A stretch of 32,828 bases of DNA from an uncultured Ruminococcus sp. (GTDB lineage: Bacteria; Bacillota; Clostridia; Oscillospirales; Ruminococcaceae). The translations under genes were made by a program, and so were the position numbers. This document shows, piece by piece, positions 7,563 through 24,063 of this stretch (positions within the stretch are counted from its first letter, which is position 1; each line of letters starts with the position of its first letter). Under the pieces are notes generated by a model. It was not told the DNA's origin, did no database searches, and worked only from the letters and a program-made list of their open reading frames with translations. The stretch covers positions 1-32,828 of the forward strand of contig CACZGM010000017.1 of the NCBI GenBank assembly GCA_902780695.1, given 5' to 3'.

Positions 7563-7640
7563 ATTTTCGGCAGTCTCCTTTTTGGATATGTGTCATTTTC
7601 CGTGTTAAAAAAATTTAAAAAAAATAAAAAAGTTTTATTA

Positions 7641-7822: not shown

Positions 7823-7851
7823 TTGACAATCGAAAAAATATCTGATATAAT
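7823..7851 (+). promoter_or_regulatory. Consensus promoter of the ABC ATPase pair
   Basis: TTGACA (7823-7828) and TATAAT (7846-7851) are both perfect and 17 bases apart. Transcription would begin near 7858, giving a leader of about 70 bases before the first ATPase. No terminator-type hairpin was found in that leader. Confidence 0.85.
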
Positions 7852-7926
7852 AGTAGATACAAGTATGGGCTAACTATGCTCTTTTGTAGAAAACGTTAAT
7901 TTTTATTCAAATTTCATCAGTTATTT

Positions 7927-8628: not shown

Positions 8629-8645
8629 TATATAAGGATAAATAT

Positions 8646-9587
8646 ATGCCGAAGACCATACTCCTCGCTCCTCCCGAAAATGTCATGGTGAGATGCGACA
8701 ATCTGGTCAAGATCTATAAGAGCAGAGATATTGAGGTAATGGCGCTTCAGGGTCTCGATCTTACGGTAGAGCGCGGCGAGCTTATGGGTATAGTCGGAGC
8801 CTCGGGTTCCGGAAAATCCACGCTGCTCAATATGCTCGGAGGTCTTGACAAGCCGTCTGCCGGAAGCCTTTTCGTTGACGGTAAGGATATGCTGAAGTTC
8901 ACTGAAAAGGATTTCATAGAATATAAAAGACATACCGTCGGGTTCGTGTGGCAGAACAATGCCCGCAACCTGATACCGTATCTTACCGCGCTGGAGAATG
9001 TCGAAATGCCGATGATGCTCAGCGGGTATGAGGGAAGGCGGAAACGCGCGGAGCACCTGCTGGATATGGTAGGGCTTTCGGCAAGAAAGAATTCGATGCT
9101 CGGGCAGATGTCCGGCGGTGAGCAGCAGAGAGTTGCTATCGCTATTGCGCTTGCAAACAACCCGAAGCTGCTGCTTGCGGACGAACCGACCGGTGCTGTC
9201 GATACAAAGACCGCGGGAAATGTACTCGATGTGTTCAAGCGGCTGAACAGGGAGACCGGCGTAACGGTGATAATCGTCACCCACGACGTGAACCTCGCAA
9301 AGTCGATAGACCGCGTAGTGGCAATACGCGACGGAAAGACGTCAAGTGAGCTTATCCGTAAAAAGCCGGTAATGACCGATATCTCCTTCGAGCAGCTGAG
9401 CGAGCTCCAGCAGGCGGAGATCAGGGCGATGCAGGAGGAAAATGACGGTCATGAAGAACTGGTGCTTCTCGATAAAGCGGGAAGACTTCAGATCCCGAAG
9501 GAATATCTGTCGGCTCTCGGCATAAACGGCGGAGATAAAGTCCGCGTTGAGCTCGACGGAGACAAGATCAGTATATATAAGCAGTGA
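8646..9587 (+). CDS. ABC ATPase of LolD/MacB type with C-terminal AbrB-like domain
   Basis: Residues 1-235 form an ABC ATPase with Walker A GASGSGKST (51-59), signature MSGGEQQ (155-161), Walker B LLLADE (175-180) and switch His213. A helical linker (about 240-268) leads to residues 270-313, which read like a SpoVT/AbrB swapped-hairpin domain: LDKAGRLQIPKEYL, then LGINGGDKVRVELDGDKISI. That domain usually dimerises and binds DNA (AbrB, MazE), so this is either a dimerisation tail or a regulator built into the transporter. It has a clear AAGGA ribosome site. No permease follows; the next gene is the large sugar-binding protein after a 228-base structured gap. Confidence 0.88.
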   Translation: MPKTILLAPPENVMVRCDNLVKIYKSRDIEVMALQGLDLTVERGELMGIVGASGSGKSTLLNMLGGLDKPSAGSLFVDGKDMLKFTEKDFIEYKRHTVGFVWQNNARNLIPYLTALENVEMPMMLSGYEGRRKRAEHLLDMVGLSARKNSMLGQMSGGEQQRVAIAIALANNPKLLLADEPTGAVDTKTAGNVLDVFKRLNRETGVTVIIVTHDVNLAKSIDRVVAIRDGKTSSELIRKKPVMTDISFEQLSELQQAEIRAMQEENDGHEELVLLDKAGRLQIPKEYLSALGINGGDKVRVELDGDKISIYKQ

Positions 9588-9815
9588 TTGCTTATTAATG
9601 CTAAATTTAAATCAATATACAGTCGGCTGACGGTATCACGGTTTAGAATTAGCAGAATAAAACAGTAAATATATAATAAAGATCGGTATTCCGGTCATAT
9701 TCTTCCTGTGAGCCGGGAGGAAAAGACCGGTTTTTGAGACAGTCGGGAAGCCGTGTCTCAGCCGGCTGTGCGGAGTTCCGCGGCAGCCGGACTTCAAGGA
9801 AAGGTGGAGCTTATT
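9588..9815 (+). promoter_or_regulatory. Structured leader of the glycan-uptake operon
   Basis: A possible promoter, TTAGCA (9649-9654) and TATAAT (9672-9677) with a 17-base gap, would start transcription near 9684. After it come three hairpins in a row: a terminator-like one (9691-9735), TGAGACA/TGTCTCA (9735-9741 with 9754-9760), and CCGGCTG/CAGCCGG (9762-9768 with 9784-9790) with an inner CGG/CCG pair. The ribosome site AAGGTGG (9801-9807) follows directly. No known riboswitch class was recognised. No small open frame with a ribosome site was seen. Confidence 0.5.
9691..9735 (+). terminator. Terminator-like hairpin between ATPase pair and sugar operon
   Basis: CCGGTC (9691-9696) pairs with GACCGG (9725-9730), with an inner TTCCT/AGGAA pair (9703-9707, 9718-9722), and TTTTT follows at 9731-9735. 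An overlapping upstream hairpin, GATCGG with CCGGTC (9681-9696), would use the same left arm and so compete with it. It either ends the ATPase transcript or attenuates the downstream operon. Confidence 0.6.
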
Positions 9816-12776
9816 TTGGGCAAAAAGAAAAGGATCACAGCGATACTTCTTACGGCCGCAATGGTTCTGGCTATGCAGAGTTTCCCTGCATACGCCGAAA
9901 ACGAGACCGCGGCGGACGCGGAAGAACAGAGCGAGATATCCACGATTACCAACATCATGAACACCGGTAACAGGGATAACGCTTACAGCGCTTATTACGA
10001 GAAGCATCACGAGGATAAATTCCCCGATGATGAGATCGTGATTGAGGCGAAGAACGCGGTCGCAGGTAAGGACAGCGGAGGAGAGGTGCCTCTGTATGAG
10101 ATCACCGACTATTCCGGTCAGGAAGACTGTCTTGTCTGGACAAACAACCGCGGACTGCTTACATACGATTTTGAGGTCACCAAACCGGGCAACTACTGCC
10201 TTGAGCTTTACTACTACACCATTTCCGGAGGAAGCACGACCGTAGATGTGGGCATTCTCATAGACGGCGAATATCCTTTCACCGCCTGCAACGATATCAC
10301 GCTCGACAGGTATTGGGAAGATGCTTCCGAGATAAAGAAGGACAGCAAGGACAACGAGCTCAAGCCTACACAGATCGAAAAGGATATGTGGGTAACTTAT
10401 CCGATAAAGGATAAAGAGGGTCTGTTCAACGATCCGTACTTCTTCAACCTTTCTGCCGGAACGCATACGATAACTCTTGAAGGTATCAGAACAAATATAG
10501 CCCTCAAATCCATTACCTTCAAAAATTATCATGACGCTCCCGATTATGTGGAGCCCGCTATGGGAGATATCGAAGCTACGCCCGCACTGAGCTCCGGCAA
10601 GAACGATATCGGCTCATCAACGATACTGATACAGGGTGAAAAACCATTATACAAGACAGCCTCCACTCTGTACGCTACATACGACAGAACTAACAGCTAC
10701 ACAAGCCCGTCCCACCCCACTAAGCAGAGATACAACACAGTCGGCGCCGAGACATGGAAAAAGGCTTCGCAGGCTATAACATGGAGCTTCACGGTTCCCT
10801 CCGACGGCTACTATAACCTTTCATTCAAGGCAAGACAGAACACGATGCGCGGCTTCTACTCCAACAGACGCATCTACATTGACGGTGTTGTACCGAACAA
10901 GGACATGGAGATAGTTTCCTTCCCTTATGATCCCAACTGGTATATCCAGAGGCTCAAGGATTCAAACGGCAAGGATATGTACCTGTTCCTCGAAGCCGGT
11001 GAGCATACCATTACAATGGAAGTTGTTCCCGGTGACATAGGCGAGATAATGAGAAGACTCGATGATCTCGTTTATACTCTCAACTACTACTACAGAAGAA
11101 TACTTATGATAACCGGTCCGTCTCCCGACGAGTATAACGATTACCTCGTTGACAGACAGATACCCGAACTTATCCCGACATTCAAAAACGCTATCGATAC
11201 TCTTTACAGAGAAAAGGCAAACATCGAAAAGCTCGGTCAGGGCTCGGAGGCTTCTTCGCTCCAGTCACTTGCGGTCATCCTCAAGAGATGCGTTGACAAG
11301 GTTGACGATATCCCGTCAATGGTCGGCACACTGAAGGATTACATCTCCGCGGTATCCGCGTGGATGAGAGACTACCGCGACCAGCCGCTTGAGATAGACT
11401 ACATCGAAGTTCTTACAATTCACGAAAAGACCGGTGTGGCAAGAGGAAACTTCTTTGAGGAATTCGCGTTCGGCTTCCAGGCATTTATCGGCTCCTTCTT
11501 TGAGGACTACACGATGCTTTCCGATACCAGCGAAAAGTCCCTCAACGTATGGGTATCCCTCGGACGTGACCAGGCAACTGTCGTAAAGGATCTCGTTGAT
11601 AACGACTTCAACCAGAACAACACAGGCGTTCAGGCGAGCATAAACCTCGTACAGGGCGCGATACTTGAAGCAACACTCGCGGGCAAGGGTCCCGATATAG
11701 CGCTCTTCCTCGGCGGCGACTTCCCGATACAGTGCGCGGCAAGAGGACTGCTTGTGAACATCAAGGAATTCAGAGATTACGAAGATGTCGTTTCCTCACG
11801 GTTCACTCCCACGATAGAAACACTTTACAGCTACAACGGCGGCGTTTACGGACTTCCCGTTTCGCAGACCTTCCCGATGATGTTCTACAGAACGGATATC
11901 CTCGAAGAGCTCAATGTAAAGAAAGTTCCCGAGACATGGGATCAGCTCATTGAAATAATCCCTGTTCTCCAGCGTTCGTACCTCACAGTCGGTCTTGTAC
12001 AGCCGACTTCCAACCTGTCAAGCTCGATATTCGAGTCCGGCGATACCTTCTCGATGCTGGTTCTCCAGACAGGCAACAATATGTACATCGACGACCTTTC
12101 AAAGACTACATTTGATCAGAAAGTGATCGTTGACGTGTTCAAGAAGTGGACCGATTTCTACACAATCTACGACTTTGAACAGACTTATGACCCCTTCACA
12201 CGTTTCAGAACAGGCGAAATGCCTATCATCATCAACAACTATCCGTTCTTCAACCAGCTTACGGTTTCCGCTCCGGAGATCAAGGGACTCTGGGATTTCA
12301 CACACGTTCCCGGAACTCCCGACGATACGGATATAAACGGCAACCCAATCGGACAGATACACTACAACGCGAACTCCAGCAGCGCCGGCGCGGTAATCTT
12401 CTCGAAGTGCGTCGATAAGAATGCGGCATGGGAATTCATCAAGTGGTTCACCTCCGACGACGTAATGATAAGCTACGGCAGAACGATCGAGGGTCAGATG
12501 GGTCAGATGGGACGTTTCGATACCGCGAACAAGAATGCGCTCGCAGCGCTTCCGTGGTCGAACGCGGAGTATGAAAAGATCTCCGACCAGATGAACCAGA
12601 CCGTCGAGATACCGATAATCCCTGCATCGTACGCAACCACCCGTCATGTCAAGAACTCGTTCAGAGCCGTTGTAAATGACGCATGGAATCCGAGATACGC
12701 TCTCTCGTCCTACAACAGAGATATCAACGCCGAGATCACGAGAAAGAATCAGGATCTTGCGCTGAACAACCAGTAA
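9816..12776 (+). CDS. Large extracellular solute-binding protein with N-terminal carbohydrate-binding-like modules
   Basis: The start is taken as the TTG at 9816, eight bases after AAGGTGG; it gives a clean signal peptide (KKKR, a hydrophobic stretch, then AYA before the cut near residue 27) and a 986-residue protein. Two beta-rich Tyr/Trp-containing segments (about 60-260 and 265-430) resemble carbohydrate-binding sandwich domains, each with a GTHTITLEG- or GEHTITMEV-type strand. A helical linker follows (about 430-570), then a family 1 binding-protein domain (about 575-960) of the maltose/oligosaccharide type (GKGPDIALFLGGDFP, YGLPVSQTFPMMFYRTD). There is no lipobox cysteine and no C-terminal membrane segment, so its retention at the cell is unexplained. 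It heads an operon with two CUT1 permease pairs. The ligand is probably an oligosaccharide. Confidence 0.88.
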   Translation: MGKKKRITAILLTAAMVLAMQSFPAYAENETAADAEEQSEISTITNIMNTGNRDNAYSAYYEKHHEDKFPDDEIVIEAKNAVAGKDSGGEVPLYEITDYSGQEDCLVWTNNRGLLTYDFEVTKPGNYCLELYYYTISGGSTTVDVGILIDGEYPFTACNDITLDRYWEDASEIKKDSKDNELKPTQIEKDMWVTYPIKDKEGLFNDPYFFNLSAGTHTITLEGIRTNIALKSITFKNYHDAPDYVEPAMGDIEATPALSSGKNDIGSSTILIQGEKPLYKTASTLYATYDRTNSYTSPSHPTKQRYNTVGAETWKKASQAITWSFTVPSDGYYNLSFKARQNTMRGFYSNRRIYIDGVVPNKDMEIVSFPYDPNWYIQRLKDSNGKDMYLFLEAGEHTITMEVVPGDIGEIMRRLDDLVYTLNYYYRRILMITGPSPDEYNDYLVDRQIPELIPTFKNAIDTLYREKANIEKLGQGSEASSLQSLAVILKRCVDKVDDIPSMVGTLKDYISAVSAWMRDYRDQPLEIDYIEVLTIHEKTGVARGNFFEEFAFGFQAFIGSFFEDYTMLSDTSEKSLNVWVSLGRDQATVVKDLVDNDFNQNNTGVQASINLVQGAILEATLAGKGPDIALFLGGDFPIQCAARGLLVNIKEFRDYEDVVSSRFTPTIETLYSYNGGVYGLPVSQTFPMMFYRTDILEELNVKKVPETWDQLIEIIPVLQRSYLTVGLVQPTSNLSSSIFESGDTFSMLVLQTGNNMYIDDLSKTTFDQKVIVDVFKKWTDFYTIYDFEQTYDPFTRFRTGEMPIIINNYPFFNQLTVSAPEIKGLWDFTHVPGTPDDTDINGNPIGQIHYNANSSSAGAVIFSKCVDKNAAWEFIKWFTSDDVMISYGRTIEGQMGQMGRFDTANKNALAALPWSNAEYEKISDQMNQTVEIPIIPASYATTRHVKNSFRAVVNDAWNPRYALSSYNRDINAEITRKNQDLALNNQ

Positions 12777-12796
12777 AGAATCGGGAGGAATTGGAA

Positions 12797-13732
12797 TTGG
12801 CAAAGCAAGATAAATCTCTGTATATCGAAGACAATAAGTTCCGATATACTCTCAGAGAAATGAAAAAGAACATAGGAGTTTACGGACTTATCGCTCCGTA
12901 CTTCCTGCTGTTCCTGGTATTTATGATAATACCTGTTTGTATCTCCCTCCCTATGGGCTTTACAAACTTCAACATGGCACAGTTCCCCCGTTGGGTGGGA
13001 CTCAGCAACTTCTACTCGCTGTTCCTCGAAGATGAGGTCTTCCTGAAAGCTATCGAGAACACTCTCGTCTTCGCGGTAGTTACAGGACCTATAAGCTACA
13101 TACTCTGCTTCATTCTCGCGTGGCTTATAAACGAGCTTCCCGGACCGCTGAAAACGGTATTCACATTCGTTTTCTACGCTCCGACTCTTGCGGGTAACAT
13201 CTACACCACATGGCAGCTCATCTTCTCCGGTGATACTTACGGTATCATGAACGCTTACCTCATCAACCTCGGTATCTCGAACGGCGCGATACAGTGGCTC
13301 ACCGACGCGAACTACATCATGGGCGTACTGATCGTGGTACAGCTCTGGATGGCGCTGGGCGCGGGCTTCCTCGCGATAAGAGCGGGTCTTCAGGGTATCC
13401 CGCGTGACCGTTACGAAGCAGGCGCTATTGAGGGAATCAAGAACAGAGGACAGGAGCTTATCTACGTTACTATCCCCGCTATGGGACCGCAGCTGATGTT
13501 CGCGGCAGTAATGCAGATCACATCGTCCTTCACGGCAGGCGATATCGGAAGAATGCTGACAGCGTTCCCGACTACCGACTACGCGGGTCATACGATAATG
13601 ACTCACGCCTTTGACTACGGTTCTATCAGATACGAAATGGGTTACTCCTCGGCAATATGCTTCGTCTTGTTCGCGGTCATGCTGATAGCGAACTGGGCGA
13701 TAAAGAAGCTGCTCGGCAAGTATCTCGATTAA
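12797..13732 (+). CDS. Sugar ABC transporter permease, MalF-type (pair 1)
   Basis: I place the start at the TTG at 12797, eight bases after GGGAGG, which gives 311 residues; frames further upstream overlap the binding-protein gene and lack a ribosome site. A short polar N-terminus is followed by about six membrane helices, beginning around residue 33 (YGLIAPYFLLFLVFM). The coupling loop carries the EAA-type motif YEAGAIEGIKNRG near 205, ending in IP, which docks on the transporter's ATPase. It belongs to the CUT1 carbohydrate-import family and should pair with the MalG-type gene 86 bases downstream. It begins 20 bases after the binding-protein stop. No ATPase gene of the matching MalK type is present. 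Confidence 0.9.
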   Translation: MAKQDKSLYIEDNKFRYTLREMKKNIGVYGLIAPYFLLFLVFMIIPVCISLPMGFTNFNMAQFPRWVGLSNFYSLFLEDEVFLKAIENTLVFAVVTGPISYILCFILAWLINELPGPLKTVFTFVFYAPTLAGNIYTTWQLIFSGDTYGIMNAYLINLGISNGAIQWLTDANYIMGVLIVVQLWMALGAGFLAIRAGLQGIPRDRYEAGAIEGIKNRGQELIYVTIPAMGPQLMFAAVMQITSSFTAGDIGRMLTAFPTTDYAGHTIMTHAFDYGSIRYEMGYSSAICFVLFAVMLIANWAIKKLLGKYLD

Positions 13733-13761
13733 ACGTAAAAAAGAAATGATATGATATCCGC

Positions 13762-13782
13762 TCCCCGCTACGCAGGCGGGGA
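13762..13782 (+). other. Intercistronic hairpin between the pair 1 permeases
   Basis: TCCCCGC (13762-13768) and GCGGGGA (13776-13782) pair perfectly around a 7-base loop in the only sizeable gap inside the operon. No T-tract follows, so it is probably an RNA-processing or stability element that could uncouple the expression of the two permeases. Confidence 0.5.
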
Positions 13783-13818
13783 AGCAATCCGAAATAATCA
13801 ACCGAAAGGACGGTAGTC

Positions 13819-14679
13819 ATGAGGGTTAAAAAATCCAGAAAAAAATATGGCGGAAGCCGCGGCGGCGACATAGCCATTTTTATACTGTTGGTACTGCTCG
13901 GACTGTTCATGCTGTTCCCGATCTATCTGTCGGCGATACAGTCTATAAAACCGAGCGAGGAGTTATTCCTGTTCCCGCCTAAACTGTACGCGATGGCACC
14001 TACAAATCAGAACTATGTCGATCTTATAAATACGGCATCGAATATGTGGGTACCTTTCAGCCGCTACATCTTCAACTCAGTATTTGTAGCGATCGTAGTT
14101 ACCATATCACAGCTCATATTCTCCTCTTCCGCTGCTTACGCGCTTGCAAAGGTGCAGTTCCCCGGAAGAAAGTTCCTTAACAAGATCATAGAAATCACGC
14201 TTCTTTTCACAAGTACGGTACTTTACATAATGCAGTACATCGTAATGGCAACAATAGGTATCATTGATACATATTTCGCTATCACGCTCCCGTACATCGC
14301 AACATCAATGGGTCTGTTCCTTATGAGACAGTTTATCGGTCAGCTGCCGGACGCTCTCATCGAAGCCGCTTACCTCGACGGTGCGGGTCAGATGAGGATC
14401 TGCTGGCAGATAGTAATGCCGAACGTTAAGCCCGCGTGGCTCACACTTATGATCTTCGCCTTCAACGGCGCATGGCAGATAAACGGTTACTCGTTCATCT
14501 ATAACGAAGCATTAAAACCTATCCCGACAGTCCTGCAGCAGATAAGCGCCTCGGGTATCGCGCGAGCCGGTGTCGCGGCAGCCGCGACGGTCGTGCTGAT
14601 GATACCGCCGATGCTGATATTCCTGCTGTGTCAGAGCTCGGTCGTTGAGACAATGGCGCAGAGCGGTCTTAAAGATTAA
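13819..14679 (+). CDS. Carbohydrate ABC transporter permease, MalG-type (pair 1)
   Basis: The 286-residue protein has about six membrane helices starting near residue 14 (DIAIFILLVLLGLFMLFP) and the conserved EAA coupling loop EAAYLDGAGQMRICWQ near 180, ending in MP. These are features of CUT1 MalG-type permeases, which form the translocation pore with a MalF-type partner. The N-terminus is short and basic. GAAAGGACGG precedes the ATG. It completes pair 1 with the gene just upstream and is followed after 19 bases by the NHL/TPR protein. The substrate cannot be read from the permease alone. Confidence 0.92.
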   Translation: MRVKKSRKKYGGSRGGDIAIFILLVLLGLFMLFPIYLSAIQSIKPSEELFLFPPKLYAMAPTNQNYVDLINTASNMWVPFSRYIFNSVFVAIVVTISQLIFSSSAAYALAKVQFPGRKFLNKIIEITLLFTSTVLYIMQYIVMATIGIIDTYFAITLPYIATSMGLFLMRQFIGQLPDALIEAAYLDGAGQMRICWQIVMPNVKPAWLTLMIFAFNGAWQINGYSFIYNEALKPIPTVLQQISASGIARAGVAAAATVVLMIPPMLIFLLCQSSVVETMAQSGLKD

Positions 14680-14698
14680 TCAAGAAAGGATGATTTTA

Positions 14699-16297
14699 AT
14701 GTCGTTAATGAAAAAGCTTGCAGCTTCGGTACTTGCCGCCGCTGTATCGCTTACCGCTCTGGCTGTGACGGCACATGCCGACGAGCCTTATACGGGTTAT
14801 AACTACGACTGGTGGGGCGACCCGATACCGTCACAGAACGGATTTGTCGTTGACAGAGTCGTTGACGGAAGCGACCTCGGACTCGACAAGCTGGATTACA
14901 GCGATCAGAGCAGCACCATGCAGGAGCAGTTAAAGAGCTTCTCGGAGCCTTCCGACATATTCATAGATCAGAAGACCGGAAAGTTCTACATAGTTGACAG
15001 CAAGAACAACAGACTTATAATAACCGACGAGAATTTCTCCCCGGAGAACACTCAGGTGGTTACCGAGCTCAAGTACGGCACGGTATTCCCGGAGAGCAGA
15101 AGTACCGTCAAAAACACAAAGTTCAAGGCTCCCGCGGGCGTATATGTAAGAACAAACACCGACGGATATACGCTTATATACGTTGCCGACTACGACAACA
15201 ACAGAGTCGTGGCGTTCAACGAGAACCTTGAGATCGATATGGAATATGTCCGTCCGTCCAGCGACGTTTATGACGCGAACGTGACATTCAACCCGAAGAA
15301 GGTCATAGTTGACAGCGCGTTCAACGTTTATGTAATAGTTCCTTCGATAACACAGGGTGCCGTTCAGTTCTCGGCGGACGGTCTGTTCAACGGATACTAC
15401 GGCGCTAACAGAGTTGAGGCTACCGCAGAGGTTATCGCGCAGCAGTTCTGGAAGCTCATATACACAAGAGATCAGATCATAGCGATGCGCCGTTCGGTCG
15501 CTATCTCGATAGCGAATATGGATATCGACGAAGAAGGCTTCATCTACACCGTTACAGAAAACAAGACAGCGGATACAGATATCCTCAAAAAGCTCAACCC
15601 CGCAGGTACGAACATATACATCAATCTCGGATATTCCGACTACACCTACGGTGATTACGCAACAAGATACTACAAGGGCAACAACTACGCTTCCGCAATA
15701 ACCGATGTCGATGTTGACACAATGGGCAATATCTACCTGCTCGACTTCGCAACGGGACGTGTGTTCCAGTACACCGACGAGTGCGACCTGCTCTTTATCT
15801 TCGGAACAAAGGGCTTCAAGAACTCGCAGGGTACACAGAAGGGAACATTCAGATCGGTTTCCGCAGTTGAATCCTACAACGGTAAGGTCTATGTCGTGGA
15901 TAACATCAAGAACAGCATTACCGTATTCAGACAGACAGAATTCGGTGCGATAGTGCAGCACGCTATACAGCTGTTCAATGAGGGTCTCTACGATGAGGCG
16001 AAGGAGCCGTGGGAGGAAGTCCTCAGAAGAGACGCAAACTACTGGCTCGCGTATATCGGTCTCGGAAACGCATACCTTAACCAGAACGACTACGCTACCG
16101 CGCTCGATTACTTCTACCGCACATCGAGAGCCGGCTACAACAGAGCGTTCAAGAGCTTCAGAATCGAGTTCATAAGAGCGAACTTCACATGGATGCTCAC
16201 GATAGTGCTCGTAGTAATACTCGGACTTATAATCTTAAGCTACGTCAGAAAGGCGCGCAGAAAGAAAAAAGCCGCTAACAAAGGAGGGTCACAATAA
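14699..16297 (+). CDS. Secreted NHL-repeat propeller protein with TPR segment and C-terminal membrane anchor
   Basis: Starting at the ATG at 14699, behind GAAAGGATG, the product is 532 residues. A signal peptide ends near AHA (about residue 24). Residues 55-420 contain repeated NHL/beta-propeller blades of the type SDIFIDQKTGKFYIVDSKNN and NRVVAFNENLEI. Residues 425-490 look like two TPR hairpins (AIQLFNEGLYDEAKEPWEEV, YIGLGNAYLNQNDYATALDYF). One membrane helix (about 500-518, TWMLTIVLVVILGLIIL) is followed by a Lys/Arg tail, which fits an outside propeller anchored in the membrane. It overlaps the YIP1 gene by one base, implying coupled translation. Its role is unknown; a scaffold or glycan sensor beside the transporters is a guess. 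Confidence 0.85.
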   Translation: MSLMKKLAASVLAAAVSLTALAVTAHADEPYTGYNYDWWGDPIPSQNGFVVDRVVDGSDLGLDKLDYSDQSSTMQEQLKSFSEPSDIFIDQKTGKFYIVDSKNNRLIITDENFSPENTQVVTELKYGTVFPESRSTVKNTKFKAPAGVYVRTNTDGYTLIYVADYDNNRVVAFNENLEIDMEYVRPSSDVYDANVTFNPKKVIVDSAFNVYVIVPSITQGAVQFSADGLFNGYYGANRVEATAEVIAQQFWKLIYTRDQIIAMRRSVAISIANMDIDEEGFIYTVTENKTADTDILKKLNPAGTNIYINLGYSDYTYGDYATRYYKGNNYASAITDVDVDTMGNIYLLDFATGRVFQYTDECDLLFIFGTKGFKNSQGTQKGTFRSVSAVESYNGKVYVVDNIKNSITVFRQTEFGAIVQHAIQLFNEGLYDEAKEPWEEVLRRDANYWLAYIGLGNAYLNQNDYATALDYFYRTSRAGYNRAFKSFRIEFIRANFTWMLTIVLVVILGLIILSYVRKARRKKKAANKGGSQ

Positions 16298-16935
16298 TGA
16301 GATTTGATCTTGATCTGCCCGCGTGGAAATGGCCCTTCTACGTTATGAGACATCCCTTCGAAGGTTATGATGATCTTCGTTGGAAAAAAGGCTACAATAT
16401 GAAGGTCGCGTGGGTAATAGTTGTCGCGTTCTTCATTATAAGCGTCGCAAGCGCACAGCTCACAGGCTTCCTGTTCAACAACACCTATGTAAAGGTATTC
16501 AACATCGTTCCGTACTTCTCGTCATCTATCATTCTTTTCCTTACATGGGTAGTGGGCAACTGGTCGCTGTGTACGCTGTTCGACGGAGAGGGAACAATGA
16601 AGAACATCTTCTGTGTTTCCGCTTACGCGCTTCTCCCTTACCTCTTCTCTGAGGTCATCGTTATAATCGCCAGCAACTTCCTCTTAAGAACAGAGGGCGG
16701 ATTTATAACATTCTTCAGATATCTCGGCATCGTCTGGTCAGTGGTGCTCATGATATCCGCAATGAAAACAGTTCATCAGTATTCGATACCCAAAACTCTC
16801 GTGGCAATGCTGTTCACGTTGGTCGCAATGATCATAATACTCTTCCTTGCGGTACTGCTGCTCACATTGTTCCAGCAGGTATTCGTATTCGGATATTCGG
16901 TATATACCGAGCTGATGTACCGATTCAGTATTTAG
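16297..16935 (+). CDS. YIP1-family integral membrane protein
   Basis: The 212-residue protein has roughly five membrane helices after a Trp-rich cytosolic N-terminus (FDLDLPAWKWPFYVMRHPF). The layout fits the Yip1 domain family: a polar start with an F-x-x-P-like membrane-approach segment, then closely spaced helices with YALLPYLFSEV in the middle. In bacteria these proteins often lie beside sugar transporters; no biochemical function is established. The start codon overlaps the previous stop (TAATG) and AAAGGAGGG precedes it, so it is co-translated with the propeller protein and may form a complex with it. The family call is moderately secure and the function open. Confidence 0.78.
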   Translation: MRFDLDLPAWKWPFYVMRHPFEGYDDLRWKKGYNMKVAWVIVVAFFIISVASAQLTGFLFNNTYVKVFNIVPYFSSSIILFLTWVVGNWSLCTLFDGEGTMKNIFCVSAYALLPYLFSEVIVIIASNFLLRTEGGFITFFRYLGIVWSVVLMISAMKTVHQYSIPKTLVAMLFTLVAMIIILFLAVLLLTLFQQVFVFGYSVYTELMYRFSI

Positions 16936-16990
16936 CGGTAACAGATCAGACTTAAAAACGATACCGAATGACCATATTGGAGGTTATAAA

Positions 16991-19336
16991 ATGCAGAATA
17001 TAAGGAAAAGGCTGATGACGGCCTGCCTTGCCGCGGTCGTCGCGGTCTCCGCGGCTTCTATGCCCGCATGGTCCGATAACGAAGATACGGCGGATATCGC
17101 CGATGCTTCGGAGGAGACAGCCGGAGAGCAGGAAGCCGGAGAAGAGGATAACGGCATATTCGTTACCGAGGAAGAGGCTATGGCAGATATGAAGGTCTAT
17201 GCCGAAAACTCGAAGCTCGCGCTTTATGTAAACGAAAAGACTGCCGTGTTCATGATCGAGGACAAAGGCACCGGTCATAAGTGGTGGTCGAGTTACTATA
17301 ATTCCGACCCGTCAAACAAGACAAAGGTAAGCAAGCGTAATACCACGATCTCGATAGATGTTGTCGGAACGGAGAGCAAGACCGTTGAGTCATCTGTCCG
17401 CGCTTACGACAGCAGCGTCAAGAAAAAGTGCGAGAAGATCGACGGCGGCGTTCGCTTCACGTTCACCTACACAAAGTACAGTATAGATATCCCGCTGGAT
17501 ATCGTGATAAATCCGGACGGCACATTCTCGGCTACGGTACCTTCGACGGAGATCGTTGAAAACAGACCGGAGACCGACCCCGAAACAAAGGAGACCGGAT
17601 ATCAGCTCCTCAACGTCCATGTCCTTGAAAACTTCGGTGCGGCAGGATATGACGAGGAAGGCATGATGATAGTTCCCGACGGTTCCGGAGCCGTTATCAA
17701 CTATAACAACGGTACTGCCTACGGTGACAACAACACGTTCGAGTCCAAGGTTTACGGCGACGACCTCGCAGTCGGAAAGCTGTACGCGGGTGACCTTATC
17801 GAGAAGGTTACGATGCCTGTAATGGCAAACATCAACAAGACCCATGACGCGGGACTTGTGATGATAGCGACAGACGGCGATGCCTACGCTATCGAGCACG
17901 CTATGGTTACCGGACAGAACGTTACCGACCTTAACTCCTGCTGGTTCGAGTTCACGCTCAGAACAAGAGACAACTACTTCATGGGCAACAACAACACAGC
18001 GCTTACGGTCTATGAAGCAGAAGGAATAAAGGCGGGCAACCTCACCACGACATATTACCCGATCTACGGTGACGATCTTTCGTACGCGGATGCGGCGAAT
18101 ATTTACAGAGACTATCTTATAAACAAGATAGGCGTTCAGAAAAAGACAGTTTCCGACAGCGCTCCCTTCTACCTCACCCTTTACGGCGGAACGGTAAAGA
18201 CTCAGTCTATACTCGGCTTCCCGGCTAAGGTACAGACCGCTGCCACGACGTACAAGCAAGCCCTTGAAATAGTCAAGGAGCTTGAAAGCAACGGTGTCAG
18301 AAACATCAAGATAATCTATGAGGACTTCAATGAAGCCGGCATCGTCGGAAAGATCGCGGCGAGCTTTGAATACTCCGGCCTTCTCGGCGGCAAGGGCGAC
18401 TACACCGAGTTCAAGAATTACATCACTGCACAGGGATATGAAGTATTCCCGAGCTGCGACATAATGGAATTCTATGAGTCCGGAAACGGCTACTCCTTCA
18501 CCCTCAACTCCTCGAAGCAGATAACAAAGGCATACGCGACACAGACTCCGTTTGAGCTGGCGTTCGGTCTTCCGCACCTCTCAAAACCGAGCTGGACGAT
18601 ACTTTCGCCTTACTACTACAAGGATATCTTCACCAAGCTCTCCGACAGCTTCCGCAGTGAAGGCTCCTCCGGAATATCGCTCAATCAGGCTTCTAACACC
18701 CTGTACAGCGATTTCAGCCGCTACAACAAGGACGGCAGACCTTATTTCGTAAGAGAAGACTCCGTGGGCATACTCAAAGATGGCTATCAGAAGCTCAAGG
18801 ACAGCGGACTCACGATAATGACCGAGAACGCCAACCAGTACATTCTGCCTTACGCGGATCAGATCAAGGATGTTCCGCTCTACTCGTCGAACTACGATAT
18901 CTTTGATTACGATATCCCGTTTGCGGAAATGGTACTGCACGGACTTGTTCCCTACACGACAAGAGGTATCAACAAGAGCGCCGACGCAGAGGAGCTGAGA
19001 ATGCTCGCGCTGGTGACAGGTACTCCGATACATTATGAGATGATGTACAACAACCCGAACAAGTTCGCGGACAGTGAGTACGATTATCTCTACTACACCA
19101 ACTACAAGGGCTGGCTCAGCAGAGCGGTGAGTGAATACAAGCTCTTTGATGAGATCGTAAGGTCGGTTTCCGACGCTAAGATCACAAAGTACGAGAGATT
19201 TGATGACGGTTCTGTACAGTCAACATTCGACAACGGAAACACTATCCGTGTCAACACCAAGACGGGCGAGATCGTCTTCAACAATAATTCCGTCAATATG
19301 AAGGATTACGGATTGGGGGTCGCAGAATATGAGTGA
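16991..19336 (+). CDS. Secreted DUF5696-like protein, possible glycoside-active barrel
   Basis: The 781-residue protein has a signal peptide (basic MQNIRKR, hydrophobic core, cleavage near residue 27) and then an acidic linker (about 28-55). The mature part starts with a beta region (LALYVNEKTAVFMIEDKGTG) like the DUF5696 family found beside CUT1 transporters. From about 390 the pattern of alternating strands and helices (NGVRNIKIIYEDFNEAGI, YEVFPSCDIMEF, SGLTIMTENANQYI) resembles a TIM barrel of glycosidase type, but I cannot name catalytic residues. There is no lipobox or membrane anchor. GGAGG precedes the start. Its stop overlaps the start of the next permease by eight bases. A role in trimming the imported glycan is plausible but unproven. 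Confidence 0.72.
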   Translation: MQNIRKRLMTACLAAVVAVSAASMPAWSDNEDTADIADASEETAGEQEAGEEDNGIFVTEEEAMADMKVYAENSKLALYVNEKTAVFMIEDKGTGHKWWSSYYNSDPSNKTKVSKRNTTISIDVVGTESKTVESSVRAYDSSVKKKCEKIDGGVRFTFTYTKYSIDIPLDIVINPDGTFSATVPSTEIVENRPETDPETKETGYQLLNVHVLENFGAAGYDEEGMMIVPDGSGAVINYNNGTAYGDNNTFESKVYGDDLAVGKLYAGDLIEKVTMPVMANINKTHDAGLVMIATDGDAYAIEHAMVTGQNVTDLNSCWFEFTLRTRDNYFMGNNNTALTVYEAEGIKAGNLTTTYYPIYGDDLSYADAANIYRDYLINKIGVQKKTVSDSAPFYLTLYGGTVKTQSILGFPAKVQTAATTYKQALEIVKELESNGVRNIKIIYEDFNEAGIVGKIAASFEYSGLLGGKGDYTEFKNYITAQGYEVFPSCDIMEFYESGNGYSFTLNSSKQITKAYATQTPFELAFGLPHLSKPSWTILSPYYYKDIFTKLSDSFRSEGSSGISLNQASNTLYSDFSRYNKDGRPYFVREDSVGILKDGYQKLKDSGLTIMTENANQYILPYADQIKDVPLYSSNYDIFDYDIPFAEMVLHGLVPYTTRGINKSADAEELRMLALVTGTPIHYEMMYNNPNKFADSEYDYLYYTNYKGWLSRAVSEYKLFDEIVRSVSDAKITKYERFDDGSVQSTFDNGNTIRVNTKTGEIVFNNNSVNMKDYGLGVAEYE

Positions 19337-20483
19337 ATTTGAAAATGAAAACATAAATGAGCTCGAAAGCGCTGCCGAAACTGCCTCCGAGACTGTTGAA
19401 GAGGTCACCGGAACTGCCGTGGAGCCTGTTGAGGAAGCGGCTCCCGTCAGAAAGACCGCTGTCCACATGACCGCCTCCGCTGCCGCGCTCAACGCGGAGG
19501 GCGAGGTGGATATCCGCAGAAGAAAGCCCAGAGAAGTCAAGCAGATAAAGCAGTCCAAGATATCGTATGAGCGCAAGAAGGGACTGTACGGCTACGGCTT
19601 CGTGGCACTGTGGATCATCGGTGTTCTGTATATGTTCATCGTGCCGATGTGCCAGTCGCTCTGGTACGCGATGTGCAAGACAGAGCTCGTAAACGATGCC
19701 GCGAGACAGGCAGAGCTCGGAATGAGCGGACCAGGAATTTACACCACATGGAACGATTTCGAGAATATCCGCTGGGCATTCACGGTAAACCCCGACTACC
19801 CGAAGAACCTCGCAGCTTCCCTCGGTGAAACGGCTTACACAGTACCGCTGGTACTTGTATTCTCGCTGTTCGTCGCACTGCTGCTCAACGATAAGTTCAA
19901 GGGCAGAACGCTCGCGAGAGCGATATTCTTCCTGCCGGTACTGATAGCAACGGGACCTGTGCTCGGAGTTATCAACGGTGATATGCTGTCGCAGGGTATT
20001 TCGGACGCGTCACAGTTCAGCGCCCTGTTCAAGACCGACTTCGTTCAGGACTTCCTGCAATTCATGGGACTGAACAACATAAGTCAGCAGCTTGCCGACA
20101 CCGTGTCGGAAGTCACGAGCTCGATACTTAACCTGATATGGGATTCCGGTATCCAGATACTGATATTCATTTCCGCACTCCAGACGATACCCGTTTCCGC
20201 GAAGGAAGCGGCATCTATGGAAGGCGCAACGGGCTGGGAATTCTTCTGGAAGATAACTTTCCCGACGATCTCCCCGATGATCTTTGCGAACCTCATCTAT
20301 ACAACGATAGACGCGTTCGTTAAGTCCGACAACCCCGTAATGCAGCAGGTAATGACCTATATCAAGCAGTGGGAATACGACCACGCGTCGGCAATGGCAT
20401 GGGTATATTTCGCAATAGTCGGAGTTATCCTCGCTATTATTTCCGCAATAGTTTCGAGATTCATATTCTATCAGGTAGATTAA
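19329..20483 (+). CDS. Sugar ABC transporter permease, MalF-type (pair 2) with long N-terminal tail
   Basis: The 384-residue permease has a roughly 90-residue cytosolic N-terminal tail before its first membrane helix near 93 (LYGYGFVALWIIGVLYMFI). The first half of the tail is Glu/Ala-rich and the second half strongly basic (IRRRKPREVKQIKQSK). About six helices follow, with the coupling motif KEAASMEGATGWEFF near 291 ending in FP. It belongs to the CUT1 family, like pair 1, but is only a distant match to it, so this is a second transporter and not a recent copy. Translation is coupled to the DUF5696-like gene by an eight-base overlap, and the partner permease starts 12 bases downstream. Confidence 0.9.
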   Translation: MSEFENENINELESAAETASETVEEVTGTAVEPVEEAAPVRKTAVHMTASAAALNAEGEVDIRRRKPREVKQIKQSKISYERKKGLYGYGFVALWIIGVLYMFIVPMCQSLWYAMCKTELVNDAARQAELGMSGPGIYTTWNDFENIRWAFTVNPDYPKNLAASLGETAYTVPLVLVFSLFVALLLNDKFKGRTLARAIFFLPVLIATGPVLGVINGDMLSQGISDASQFSALFKTDFVQDFLQFMGLNNISQQLADTVSEVTSSILNLIWDSGIQILIFISALQTIPVSAKEAASMEGATGWEFFWKITFPTISPMIFANLIYTTIDAFVKSDNPVMQQVMTYIKQWEYDHASAMAWVYFAIVGVILAIISAIVSRFIFYQVD

Positions 20484-20495
20484 GGAGGTGCTTCA

Positions 20496-21602
20496 ATGGA
20501 CAACGAAAATATTCAGACTGTACCGGGAGCTGCTTCCGCTGCAAAGAAATCAAAACGTCAGCTCAAGAAGGAAGAGAAGAAGCGCTTAAGCAAATTCCAC
20601 GTTTCGAGCTGGGAGATCATAACCCATTACTTCAAATATACCGATGCCGAGAAGAAGCATTACCGCTACATCCTCGGAAGACGCACCGGTGAAAAGGTAT
20701 GGCCGGTCTTCCGTTTCCTCATTCTTTTCGGACTTGCGTTCGTCGTAGTTTACCCGATAATCTACATGATATCCTGTGCGATCAGACCTCAGGTCGAAAT
20801 GTCCGACCCGTCTATCATGTGGATACCCAAGACATTCACATTAAGCAACCTTGAAGAGACATGGCTCGCGATCGACTACCCGAAGCTCGTATGGGATACG
20901 GTAACGGTAAATGTAGTCTGCTCAATCATACAGGTTCTTACCTGCTCGATAGCCGGCTACGGATTTGCAAGATTCAAGTTCAAGGGCAAGGGACTGATGT
21001 TCGCGATAGTTATTCTCCAGATCATCGTTCCTACGCAGGTTATCCTGATACCGCAGTATATGCAGTTCAGATACTTCAACCCCCTCGGAATCGTCGGTCT
21101 TTTCAACAACGGCGCGGCGATAAACCTCGCGGACTCTCCGTGGGCGCTCTACCTGCAGGCATTCTTCTGCAACGGTATCCGTGCGGGTCTGTTCATCTTC
21201 CTGTTCAGACAGTTCTTCAGAGGACTTCCGAAGGAACTCGAAGATGCAGCGTATCTTGACGGCTGCGGACCTTTCGAGACATTCGTAAGAATAATGGTTC
21301 CGAATGCGTCCAACTCCTTCCTTACAGTTTTCATCTTCTCCGTTGTATGGTACTGGAACGACTCCTATGTATCGGGTATGTTCTTCACAAAGTCCAACAC
21401 GGTAGCGCTTATGGTAAGCAACCTCTATCAGACGATATCCGCTTACTACAGCCCGAACGGAACCCCGACAGGCGTACCGTCCGACTGGCTCGTTTGGATA
21501 GAGTCCGGATGCCTGCTCTCGATACTTCCTATCCTCGTTATGTACATCTTCCTCCAGAAGAACTTCGTCGAGGGTATCGAAAGATCCGGTATCGTAGGAT
21601 GA
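20496..21602 (+). CDS. Carbohydrate ABC transporter permease, MalG-type (pair 2) with long N-terminal tail
   Basis: The 368-residue protein has a highly basic N-terminal tail of about 70 residues (KSKRQLKKEEKKRLSK, then YRYILGRRTGEKVW) before the first of about six membrane helices (FRFLILFGLAFVVVYPIIYM, near 75). The coupling motif is LEDAAYLDGCGPFE around 247, ending in VP, with Asp in place of the first Ala of EAA. It is a CUT1 MalG-type permease and pairs with the gene just upstream. The ribosome site AAGGAGGTG is ideal. It is the last gene of the operon; a GC-rich palindromic stretch and then a clear terminator follow. Confidence 0.92.
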   Translation: MDNENIQTVPGAASAAKKSKRQLKKEEKKRLSKFHVSSWEIITHYFKYTDAEKKHYRYILGRRTGEKVWPVFRFLILFGLAFVVVYPIIYMISCAIRPQVEMSDPSIMWIPKTFTLSNLEETWLAIDYPKLVWDTVTVNVVCSIIQVLTCSIAGYGFARFKFKGKGLMFAIVILQIIVPTQVILIPQYMQFRYFNPLGIVGLFNNGAAINLADSPWALYLQAFFCNGIRAGLFIFLFRQFFRGLPKELEDAAYLDGCGPFETFVRIMVPNASNSFLTVFIFSVVWYWNDSYVSGMFFTKSNTVALMVSNLYQTISAYYSPNGTPTGVPSDWLVWIESGCLLSILPILVMYIFLQKNFVEGIERSGIVG

Positions 21603-21680: not shown

Positions 21681-21724
21681 GATGACCGTAATACGGAAAT
21701 CTGAAAGTTTTGTTAAAGATCTGA

Positions 21725-21756
21725 AACCCGGCTGACCGAAAATCAGCCGGGTTTTT
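21725..21756 (+). terminator. Intrinsic terminator of the glycan-uptake operon
   Basis: AACCCGGCTGA (21725-21735) and TCAGCCGGGTT (21743-21753) form a perfect 11-base stem with a 7-base loop, followed by a run of T. It closes the plus-strand operon about 120 bases after its last stop codon and just before the metal-efflux promoter. Confidence 0.92.
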
Positions 21757-21777: not shown

Positions 21778-21806
21778 TTGACAAATCATTCTCACAGGTA
21801 TATAAT
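21778..21806 (+). promoter_or_regulatory. Consensus promoter of the metal-efflux operon
   Basis: TTGACA (21778-21783) and TATAAT (21801-21806) are both perfect with a 17-base spacer. Such a strong promoter on an efflux operon normally needs repression, which fits the palindrome that begins four bases downstream. Confidence 0.88.
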
Positions 21807-21830
21807 ACAATTGAACGGTTGTTCAAGTGT
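21807..21830 (+). promoter_or_regulatory. ArsR/SmtB-type operator palindrome
   Basis: The perfect palindrome TTGAACGGTTGTTCAA (21811-21826) extends to 24 bases with one mismatch and covers the expected transcription start. It contains TGAA-N6-TTCA, the half-site arrangement recognised by metal-sensing ArsR/SmtB repressors such as CzrA. The location is right for a repressor that leaves DNA when Zn, Cd or Pb binds. No ArsR-family gene is in this window, so the regulator must be encoded elsewhere. Confidence 0.7.
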
Positions 21831-21852
21831 TTGTAAAATAAATTTCGCTTTC

Positions 21853-21939
21853 GCTTCCTTTCGCGTCCGAAAGGAAGCAGAGTAAGAGCGCGAGAGAGGG
21901 GCAGCGCTCCTCTCTCGCCCGCAGCCCTCAAGGCTGCGG
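21853..21939 (+). other. Three tandem hairpins in the metal-efflux leader
   Basis: Three perfect stems stand in a row: 11 bases (21853-21863 with 21868-21878), 10 bases (21890-21899 with 21909-21918) and 8 bases (21919-21926 with 21932-21939). None is followed by a T-tract. They lie between the promoter and the HMA gene, whose ribosome site (AGGAG at 21955-21959) stays exposed. They may stabilise the RNA or be inserted palindromic elements. Confidence 0.55.
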
Positions 21940-21965
21940 CGGCATACAGCAGATAGGAGAAATAT

Positions 21966-22184
21966 ATGAAGAAGAAATTCAAATTACAGGATCTTGACTG
22001 CGCAAACTGCGCACAGAAAATGGAAGATGCGATAAAGAAGATCGACGGTGTGACCGATGCTTCAGTGAACTTCATGATGCAGAAGATGACGGTTGAAGCG
22101 GACGACGACAGGTTCGACGATATTATGAAAAAAATTGTTGATACCTGCAAAAAGGTTGAGCCGGAATGTGTAATTCTGATGTAA
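21966..22184 (+). CDS. HMA-domain heavy-metal chaperone-like protein
   Basis: The 72-residue protein is a single heavy-metal-associated domain with metal-binding C12 and C15 in DLDCANCAQKMEDAI and a ferredoxin-like beta-alpha-beta pattern (VTDASVNFMMQKMTVEADD). The DCANC form is typical of the metal-binding domain of Zn/Cd ATPases rather than of CopZ. It sits two bases before the ATPase start and in another frame, and the ATPase lacks its own N-terminal HMA domain. It therefore works as a detached metal-binding domain or chaperone for that pump. AGGAG precedes the ATG. Expression should follow the upstream metal-responsive operator. Confidence 0.9.
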   Translation: MKKKFKLQDLDCANCAQKMEDAIKKIDGVTDASVNFMMQKMTVEADDDRFDDIMKKIVDTCKKVEPECVILM

Positions 22185-22185
22185 A

Positions 22186-24063
22186 ATGGGAAGTCTGACG
22201 AAAAAACAGCGCACCGCGCTCCTGCGGATAGTCGTGACCTTCGTATTGTTCGCGGGACTTATGATATGCGAGCATACGGGGGTCTTTGAGCCTTTGCCGT
22301 GGTGGGCGGCTGCGCTGATATTTATTGTTCCGTACCTTATAATAGGCTATGACATAATTCTGAAAGCCATGAAGAACATACTGCACGGGCAGGTCTTTGA
22401 CGAGAATTTTCTGATGCTCGTCGCAACGGTCGCAGCGTTCTGTATCGGGGAGTATTCCGAAGCTGTTGCGGTCATGCTGTTCTACCAGGTCGGTGAGCTG
22501 TTCCAGAGCTACGCTGTCGGCAAGTCACGCCAATCTATAACAGAACTTATGAATATCGTCCCGGAATATGCCAATATCGAATGGAACGGAGAGCTTCGGC
22601 AGGTCGATCCGGATGATGTCGAGGTAGGAGACACCATAATCATAAAGCCCGGAGAGAGAATACCGCTCGATGCTGTGATAGCCGAGGGCGATACTATGAT
22701 CGATACCGCGGCGCTTACAGGCGAGTCCGTGCCGCGGCACGCTTCAGTCGGTGACGAGATCATAAGCGGCTGCATTAACGGCAGCGGCACGATAAAAGCG
22801 ACGGTAACAAAGGCTTTTGAAGACTCCACGGTTACCCGCATACTTGAACTCGTCGAAAATGCGGGAAGCAAAAAGGCAAAGACCGAGAATTTCATAACGC
22901 GTTTCGCAAAAGTATATACACCGTTCGTGACGATAGCCGCTCTGATACTTGCTGTTATTCCTCCGTTGTTCGACGGTGACTGGAGCGAGTGGATAGCCCG
23001 TGCCTGCACTTTCCTTGTAATATCCTGTCCGTGTGCGCTGGTGATATCCGTGCCGCTGGGATTTTTCGGCGGTATCGGTTCGGCTTCCCGGCAGGGAATA
23101 CTCGTCAAGGGCGGCAGCTATCTTGAAGCGGTCGCAGAGCTGAAAACCGTTGTTTTCGATAAGACCGGTACTCTTACCAAGGGCGAGTTCCGGGTAAGCA
23201 AAGCTGCGGCGGTGGGCTGCACAGAGGAAGAACTCATCGAAACTGCGGCTCTTGCGGAATGCTTTTCAAATCACCCTATTGCCGTTTCGATACGCGAGGC
23301 ATACGGAAAGACCATAAATACGGAGCGCGTTTCCGACACGGAAGAGACTGCCGGACACGGTGTTGCCGCGCTTGTTGACGGCAGACGAGTGCTGCTCGGA
23401 AATATGGCTCTTATGCGTGACAACGGCATAGAAGCGAACGAACTTACTTCACCCGGAACTGTGGTTTACGCGGCAAGGGACGGAAAATACATCGGTGCTA
23501 TCGTGATCTCCGACAGCGTAAAGGAAGGCTCCGCAGAAGCGATCACTGAGCTTAAAGCCGCGGGAGCGAAAAGATGTGTAATGCTTACGGGCGACCGTGA
23601 AGCGGAAGCCGGTGCGGTTTCTGCGCAGCTCGGGCTTGATATGCACTATTCCGAACTCCTGCCCTCCGACAAGGTGGGCATAGTCGAGAAGCTGCTCGGC
23701 GAGTGCGGCAAGGGCGAAAATCTCGCGTTCGTCGGTGACGGCATCAATGATGCGCCTGTGCTTGCGAGAGCAGATATAGGAATCGCAATGGGAAGCATGG
23801 GCAGCGATGCGGCGATAGAAGCGGCAGACATAGTAATAATGGACGACGATCTCCGCAAGATACCTGAAGTGATGAAGACAGCGTCAAAGACTATGCGCAT
23901 AGTGCGTGAGAATATCGTGTTCGCGCTGGGCGTAAAGCTCGCGGTTCTTGTGCTCGGTGCGCTCGGTATCGCGAATATGTGGCTCGCGGTTTTTGCGGAC
24001 GTGGGAGTCGCGGTAATAGCGATACTGAATTCAATGCGTATGCTGAAAAAAACACGCACATAG
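22186..24063 (+). CDS. cadA: Heavy-metal efflux P1B-type ATPase (Zn/Cd/Pb class)
   Basis: The 625-residue pump exports divalent metal from the cytosol using ATP. It shows the actuator motif TGE (178-180), the metal site CPC (281-283) in the membrane, the phosphorylated Asp325 in DKTGTLT, the nucleotide-binding HP pair (363-364), TGD (468-470) and GDGINDAP (517-524). The last membrane segment carries Asp605 in FADVGVAV, the mark of the Zn/Cd/Pb (P1B-2) class rather than the copper class. The N-terminus starts directly with a membrane helix, since the usual HMA domain is encoded by the preceding gene. A terminator follows. The metal preference is inferred from these residues. Confidence 0.93.
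   Translation: MGSLTKKQRTALLRIVVTFVLFAGLMICEHTGVFEPLPWWAAALIFIVPYLIIGYDIILKAMKNILHGQVFDENFLMLVATVAAFCIGEYSEAVAVMLFYQVGELFQSYAVGKSRQSITELMNIVPEYANIEWNGELRQVDPDDVEVGDTIIIKPGERIPLDAVIAEGDTMIDTAALTGESVPRHASVGDEIISGCINGSGTIKATVTKAFEDSTVTRILELVENAGSKKAKTENFITRFAKVYTPFVTIAALILAVIPPLFDGDWSEWIARACTFLVISCPCALVISVPLGFFGGIGSASRQGILVKGGSYLEAVAELKTVVFDKTGTLTKGEFRVSKAAAVGCTEEELIETAALAECFSNHPIAVSIREAYGKTINTERVSDTEETAGHGVAALVDGRRVLLGNMALMRDNGIEANELTSPGTVVYAARDGKYIGAIVISDSVKEGSAEAITELKAAGAKRCVMLTGDREAEAGAVSAQLGLDMHYSELLPSDKVGIVEKLLGECGKGENLAFVGDGINDAPVLARADIGIAMGSMGSDAAIEAADIVIMDDDLRKIPEVMKTASKTMRIVRENIVFALGVKLAVLVLGALGIANMWLAVFADVGVAVIAILNSMRMLKKTRT

Follow-up and report, generated by a model that had tools for sequence, protein, structure and literature searches.

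The stretch of DNA analysed here, referred to as the window, spans positions 1 to 32,828 of contig C17 in the assembly of an uncultured Ruminococcus sp. (3.29 Mb in 153 contigs). The named genomes closest to it are metagenome assemblies that carry the labels Ruminiclostridium, Ruminococcaceae or Clostridia, and several of these came from ruminant stomachs. The window carries a candidate plant-glycan uptake operon of ten genes on the forward strand. Eight of these, encoding a giant substrate-binding protein (SBP), two MalF/MalG-type pairs of CUT1 permeases, an NHL-TPR propeller protein, a YIP1-domain protein and a DUF5696 protein, form a core that recurs in many relatives, and the other two, at the operon head, encode ATP-binding cassette (ABC) ATPases. 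The genes and flanking signals are as follows.

7823-7851, forward: sigma-70-like promoter site, perfect TTGACA-17-TATAAT (consensus match only)
7927-8628, forward: ATP1, LolD/MacB-type ABC ATPase, 233 residues
8646-9587, forward: ATP2, LolD/MacB-type ABC ATPase, 313 residues, with a C-terminal MazE/AbrB-like tail
about 9804-12776, forward: SBP, giant binding protein (GTG start placed by comparison with the length of its relatives; tested as 9822-12773)
about 12797-13732, forward: F1, MalF-type CUT1 permease (start likewise placed by comparison with relatives; the open reading frame opens at 12683)
13819-14679, forward: G1, MalG-type CUT1 permease
about 14690-16297, forward: NHL propeller-TPR protein with a signal peptide and a C-terminal transmembrane segment
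16297-16935, forward: YIP1-domain protein with five hydrophobic segments (Yip1, 57.3 bits)
16991-19336, forward: DUF5696 protein (PF18952, 463.5 bits), predicted to be secreted, GH129-like beta-sandwich plus TIM barrel (GH, glycoside hydrolase)
19329-20483, forward: F2, MalF-type CUT1 permease
20496-21602, forward: G2, MalG-type CUT1 permease
21723-21755, forward: terminator-like hairpin of 13 pairs, the strongest in the window

A preliminary description of this DNA had reported the eight genes from the SBP to G2, and all of them were found in place with the domains it named. Both of the start/stop overlaps it pointed out are also real: the YIP1 ATG overlaps the NHL-TPR stop by 1 nucleotide, the last base of the stop being common to both, and the F2 ATG sits 8 nucleotides inside the DUF5696 gene. 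Its eight-gene extent was incomplete, since it missed the same-strand ATP1-ATP2 at 7927-9587, which in this lineage belong to a conserved unit of ten genes. A single transcription unit covering 7927-21602 is likely, because the perfect promoter-like site precedes ATP1 and the strongest terminator-like hairpin follows G2. Against a single unit, promoter-like sites in the window are near chance level (23 found versus 17.1 expected, standard deviation 4.5), two more perfect sites are found at positions 14994 and 21778, and the eight-gene core could have a start of its own at a 10-of-12 site (9649-9677) within the 216-nucleotide gap before the SBP gene.

Conservation was assessed on 102 loci gathered through DUF5696: 22 from named genomes, 40 places in a phylum sample of 398 genomes and 40 in a family sample of 197 genomes, taken from the stronger DUF5696 matches. 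The conservation counts use the 83 loci with at least 7.5 kb upstream and at least 2.5 kb downstream, and are not counts of independent events, as part of the loci, including the 22 from named genomes, are close kin. NHL-TPR, F2 and G2 accompany DUF5696 in all 83 loci, SBP-F1-G1 lies upstream in 74, YIP1 has its own gene in 64 and is fused to the propeller in the other 19, and ATP1-ATP2 heads the operon in 24, the remaining 59 core loci being without the pair. Five of the nine loci without upstream SBP-F1-G1 (L079, L085, L090, L091 and L092) have SBP-F1 after G2, and in four of these five, fetched further, G1 was found there too (L079, L085, L090 and L091, continued as L207-L210). An overlap of start and stop codons, by a crude test on the first in-frame ATG, was found for NHL/YIP1 in 41/76 and for DUF5696/F2 in 64/102 of the collected loci. 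DUF5696 has strong matches, defined by E below 1e-50, in at least 37/398 phylum genomes and at least 62/197 family genomes; these and the other genome-search tallies are lower bounds, few first-look candidates (3, 11 or 5) having been scored per genome. Several copies are present in some genomes, with three strong ones in G335 and in G062. Some points count against a fixed module: L067, L070 and L071 are without SBP-F1-G1 in the DNA seen, L076 has just weak F1/G1-like genes several kb downstream (L206), and, the loci having been chosen by DUF5696, the frequency of NHL-YIP1 or F2-G2 without DUF5696 lies outside these counts. At the level of gene order, the counts show that SBP, F1, G1, NHL-TPR, YIP1, DUF5696, F2 and G2 constitute a conserved module in the phylum. 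The preliminary description would have had its grouping fall if homologues of the propeller and YIP1 genes rarely occurred with these permeases; judged by their recurrence, with a propeller in every locus and YIP1 either separate or fused, the grouping of the eight genes is non-accidental.

The NHL-TPR protein consists of a signal peptide, an NHL propeller, TPR and a single C-terminal hydrophobic segment. In 19/19 loci without a separate YIP1 gene, the propeller protein itself carries a YIP1 part. Pfam confirmed this NHL-YIP1 fusion in all three of the proteins scanned, and in a control set of 77 shorter propeller frames a YIP1 part was present in one, L078, which is truncated by a contig end. 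The fusion into one protein supports the joint assembly of propeller and YIP1 that had been suggested from their overlapping genes, and is the best evidence, from gene structure, for the two working together. A role of propeller and YIP1 as a membrane-anchored unit is putative and unproved.

The import components themselves look familiar. The SBP has a signal peptide, two beta-sandwich domains, a helical domain and an SBP_bac_1 domain, the last matching at 77 bits against a cut-off of 26, and it thereby provides the binding protein of a CUT1 importer. Its C-terminal part is nearest, in sequence and in fold, to the beta-1,2-glucooligosaccharide binding protein Lin1841, at 22% identity, a likeness that does not fix the substrate. 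In the predicted structure the N-terminal half contains the two beta-sandwich domains and the helical domain, which are similar to carbohydrate-binding modules (CBM) by appearance only, and Pfam gave just a sub-threshold DUF5077 match for this half. An EAA-type loop, by a loose pattern, is present in 4/4 window permeases, and three of the four pass the BPD_transp_1 cut-off, F2 being just below it (25.9 versus 26.4 bits). Import of an oligosaccharide through these CUT1 parts is putative.

As the preliminary description stated, no MalK/MsmX-type ATPase is encoded within the operon, but this is unremarkable. In Caldicellulosiruptor bescii, CUT1 importers without a dedicated ATPase are served by MsmK, and when MsmK is lost, growth on di-, oligo- and polysaccharides is severely impaired (PMC8579813). 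Because one MsmK serves several CUT1 importers there, a missing MalK gene is ordinary, and four ATPases above the UgpC cut-off are encoded elsewhere in the window's genome. One of the four (L192) adjoins permease-like genes, two lie on contig C6, one of these (L191) adjoining genes for glucuronate isomerase and an altronate-type dehydratase, and another (L193) is beside recA, with no permease match within the 16 kb read. CUT1 import is probably powered by a common MsmX/UgpC-type ATPase encoded elsewhere. Like the C. bescii importers, the window system combines an SBP and two permeases with EAA-type loops and has no dedicated ATPase at the locus; unlike them, it has two permease pairs per unit, three extra conserved proteins and a giant multi-domain SBP (PMC8579813).

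Such standard-looking CUT1 parts would equally suit two ordinary importers placed in one glycan locus, with NHL-TPR, YIP1 and DUF5696 as co-expressed accessories not directly involved in import or assembly. A second binding-protein gene lies within 1.5 kb after G2 in 19/93 loci, as expected of two independent importers, and the earlier statement that one binding protein serves two permease pairs thus holds for the window but not for all of its relatives. However, NHL(-YIP1) and DUF5696 adjoin F2-G2 in every one of the 83 loci, and the frequent DUF5696/F2 overlap (64/102, by the crude test) also speaks against mere co-expression, so that we consider two ordinary importers with unrelated accessories an unlikely explanation.

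From the ten-gene order, ATP1-ATP2 were at first read as energising the CUT1 pairs; this reading was dropped, as the pair occurs with HlyD-FtsX elsewhere and FtsX tracks ATP2. The best curated models for ATP1 and ATP2 are MacB and LolD; UgpC and MalK are outside the best 25 models, and no OB_MalK or TOBE match was found in either protein. The MazE/AbrB-like tail of ATP2 scores 24.0 bits against a cut-off of 24.7 and is thus sub-threshold. The genome-wide distribution of the pair was assessed via ATP2, for which strong matches (E up to 1e-85) occur in at least 33/197 family genomes and at least 13/398 phylum genomes. In the phylum sample, DUF5696 is present in 8/13 ATP2-positive genomes versus 29/385 others, a count of genomes and not of independent events. 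Outside this operon type, ATP2 shares its gene run with a long FtsX permease at 18 of the 19 loci fetched (L171-L189), the exception, L177, being located at a contig end; in G335, from another family, ATP1, HlyD, FtsX, ATP2 and a binding-protein gene follow one another consecutively. Among family genomes, a strong FtsX match was found in 21/21 that have both ATP2 and this operon type, versus 1/42 that have DUF5696 but no ATP2. The 21 are 20 genomes with ATP2 and DUF5696, plus G466, in which ATP2 adjoins the SBP; in G432, ATP2 and DUF5696 are on separate contigs. The single ATP2-less genome with FtsX, G467, is a 200-contig assembly, and the other member of its genus here, G558, has ATP2. These figures are weakened by the relatedness of the genomes, which are not independent events, by the incompleteness of a few of the 42 assemblies, and by weak partial FtsX matches (E 1e-6 to 9e-6) in 6 of the 42.

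In the window's genome, the FtsX permease is encoded at G000:C6:37273-40113 (637 bits); it is FtsX by Pfam and has HlyD adjoining, with no ATPase directly beside HlyD-FtsX on contig C6. This permease, of about 950 residues, matches FtsX in two stretches, and no relative of it was found among solved structures at E up to 0.01. Elsewhere the two systems lie close together: HlyD-FtsX is downstream of G2 in G441 and G544, with one gene for a GH26 protein between, and by coordinates FtsX is close downstream in G461. In an ATP2 tree, from a short search and with some long branches, 29/29 operon copies fall into one clade (Shimodaira-Hasegawa-like approximate likelihood ratio test, 97) among FtsX-linked ATP2s. 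On the SBP tree the ATPase pair requires three changes, in agreement with a single gain plus two losses. The partner of ATP1-ATP2 is probably the HlyD-FtsX transporter encoded elsewhere rather than the CUT1 permeases, and in the simplest reading the ATPase genes entered the sugar operon once and remained tied to the FtsX permease.

Alternatively, ATP1-ATP2 may have switched partner and may themselves power both CUT1 pairs. In line with such a switch, the pair heads the operon in 24/83 loci, with several different upstream neighbourhoods among the 13 of these looked at, the window permeases retain EAA-type loops, and the top-scoring solved relatives of ATP2, by whole-sequence score, are the peptide-importer ATPases Rv1281c and DppD, above MJ0796 and LolD, a ranking that also tells against our assignment of the pair to HlyD-FtsX. 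Set against it are the presence of FtsX in 21/21 genomes with ATP2 versus 1/42 without, the 59/83 core loci in which the pair is missing, and the curated models LolD and MacB, which together make a switched partner very improbable.

MacAB and LolCDE are ABC transporters of the HlyD-FtsX/MacB class. The transporter to which we assign ATP1-ATP2 resembles this class in its HlyD-type protein, its FtsX-matching permease and its LolD/MacB-type ATPases. It differs from MacAB and LolCDE in the length of the permease, with FtsX in two stretches, in its use of two distinct ATPases and, within the window's lineage, in that the ATPase genes are placed in a sugar operon at a distance from the permease gene. 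No paper was found in a literature search on FtsX/HlyD with two ATPases. The tie between the ATPases of an FtsX transporter and a sugar operon implies that genes side by side in an operon do not always encode direct partners, and it makes coupling of the sugar and FtsX systems testable.

Two other gene arrangements were observed. In the window's genome, HlyD-FtsX is followed two genes later by a gene for an 812-residue ABC ATPase (L190, 14487-16925), with its ATPase part at residues 21-169 and the rest unmatched by Pfam. In G342 (L188, 4891-19901), ATP1-HlyD-FtsX-ATP2 lies about 4 kb upstream of a same-strand SBP-F1-G1-NHL run.

Sequence profile and predicted fold both show that DUF5696 is distantly homologous to GH129 glycosidases. 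A profile of 58 DUF5696 sequences matches the solved chains 5opq (E 8.7e-10) and 5wzn (E 1.4e-6), and these GH129-type enzymes (ZgGH129 and NagBb) rank first in a Foldseek search with the predicted structure (E 2.3e-23), followed by endo-alpha-N-acetylgalactosaminidases (GH101) and then by GH31 members. The GH129 label is taken from the title of 8rzk, and NagBb belongs to the same family. A search of solved structures with the single DUF5696 sequence gave chance-level matches only, and a Pfam scan of the window protein at E up to 0.01 gave PF18952 only, with no GH129 model match. The Pfam GH129 model also had no match in 199 genomes, where no positive control was found either, so that absence is not shown. 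DUF5696 further differs from ZgGH129 and NagBb in its Pfam family, in an identity of 11-15% and in the lack of conservation at the expected catalytic position. The profile match ends before strand 4 and gives no catalytic residues by alignment; residues 566 and 612 were mapped by strand order and spacing, and hence approximately, from the catalytic residues of NagBb, and we infer that they are the positions of the catalytic pair.

If DUF5696 were an active GH129-type glycosidase, the homology and fold would be readily understood, and so would the near-invariant D574 (92/103) and D639 (93/103). Residue 566, however, at the end of strand 4 and the expected nucleophile, is Asp in just 30/103 sequences, Gln in 20 and Ser in 16, with Gln in the window, and residue 612 is variable as well (E in 36, D in 26 and N in 12 of the 103, thus Glu or Asp in 62/103), the approximate mapping applying to both. 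Catalysis by DUF5696 is doubtful on these residues, and an active enzyme remains the less probable alternative for this single step. Separately, G475, G478, G493, G538, G541, G564 and G578 contain frames of about 630-690 residues that match DUF5696 weakly and in part (E 8e-21 to 9e-14), and these are perhaps a DUF5696 sister family.

A link to glycans comes from the neighbours of the module in relatives, which were scanned in one representative each for 10 of the 28 clusters listed. They include GH26 with CBM27/CBM6 or CBM35, GH95, GH3, GH8 and GH10, as well as LacI or AraC-type regulators. These neighbours point to plant cell-wall glycans, and different copies of the module probably target different glycans. 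The glycan-capture function proposed in the preliminary description is plausible and is supported in part by the hydrolases near the module in several relatives, although none adjoins the window copy. Gram-positive polysaccharide utilization loci are a known class of gene cluster. The module is like them in that importer genes lie near regulators and hydrolases in relatives, and differs in the constant presence of NHL-TPR, YIP1 and DUF5696 and in the window copy being without an adjoining hydrolase.

The operon could instead recycle or sense the cell's own envelope glycans, with HlyD-FtsX and ATP1-ATP2 acting on the envelope and the CUT1 pairs salvaging fragments. The LolD/MacB and FtsX class of ATP1-ATP2 and of their trans permease would suit this role, and so would the lack of an adjacent glycosidase and the position near dnaA-dnaN in the window. 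Diet-type substrates, in contrast, fit better with the three strong DUF5696 copies in G335 and in G062 and with the GH26, GH95, GH3, GH8 or GH10 genes found close to the module in relatives, and envelope recycling is for these reasons improbable.

Taken together, we lean, with only modest confidence, towards a ten-gene plant-glycan uptake operon that would work as follows. The giant SBP, with its extra carbohydrate-binding-like domains, would capture oligosaccharides outside the cell and deliver them to CUT1 pair 1, and pair 2 would import a second product, for which it would rely on DUF5696 or on a further binding protein; the common MsmX/UgpC-type ATPase would drive both pairs. DUF5696, as a secreted protein of GH129 fold, would bind or trim glycan close to the membrane, and the propeller-TPR and YIP1 proteins would form one membrane-anchored unit keeping the outer proteins near the permeases. 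ATP1-ATP2 would be the ATPases of the separate HlyD-FtsX transporter, whose genes joined the operon head, most simply once, in the window's lineage, with the effect that both systems are co-produced. That the parts form one surface machine is an interpretation, and it has to bear the poor model of the full SBP (predicted template modelling score, pTM, 0.48), the medium quality of the DUF5696 model (predicted local distance difference test 69, pTM 0.73) and the absence of any glycoside hydrolase from the window. A bolder version is speculative and rather improbable: a Gram-positive counterpart of Sus-type systems, in which a scaffold of NHL-TPR and YIP1, anchored in the membrane, and DUF5696 as a non-catalytic receptor of GH129 fold would hold the giant SBP over two CUT1 importers in one complex, HlyD-FtsX, with its ATPases produced from the same operon, adding a mechanical or export step at the surface in the window's lineage.

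A literature search on DUF5696 found no paper naming the family, and searches for YIP1 or NHL with importer terms gave nothing on the module among the matches listed. The widely conserved accessory set around two CUT1 importers is apparently undescribed, and the novelty is this protein set, not a new kind of transporter. If the parts do form one uptake machine, the usual model of sugar import in Gram-positive bacteria would gain a conserved layer of surface proteins, and a testable role would emerge for the NHL-TPR and YIP1 proteins of bacteria.

Ahead of the operon lies an origin-type neighbourhood. On the reverse strand, 389-6588 contains dnaN, dnaA and recR together with YbaB-like and dnaX-like genes (by eye), and the G+C content of 0.37-0.46 in 1-8000 is below that of the rest of the window. 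A small signal recognition particle RNA (6371-6469, reverse strand, 63.8 bits) is located within the 5' part of the long open reading frame 4558-6588, and the dnaX-like gene therefore probably starts further downstream. Beyond the terminator-like hairpin, 21778-24063 (forward) holds a heavy-metal P-type ATPase gene, matching the cadmium family model, with the perfect promoter-like site at 21778-21806 about 380 nucleotides before its start. It is followed by two adjoining MsbA-like ABC exporter genes (24362-27882, forward) and, after this pair, by a gene for an ABC-F protein (28970-30898, reverse).

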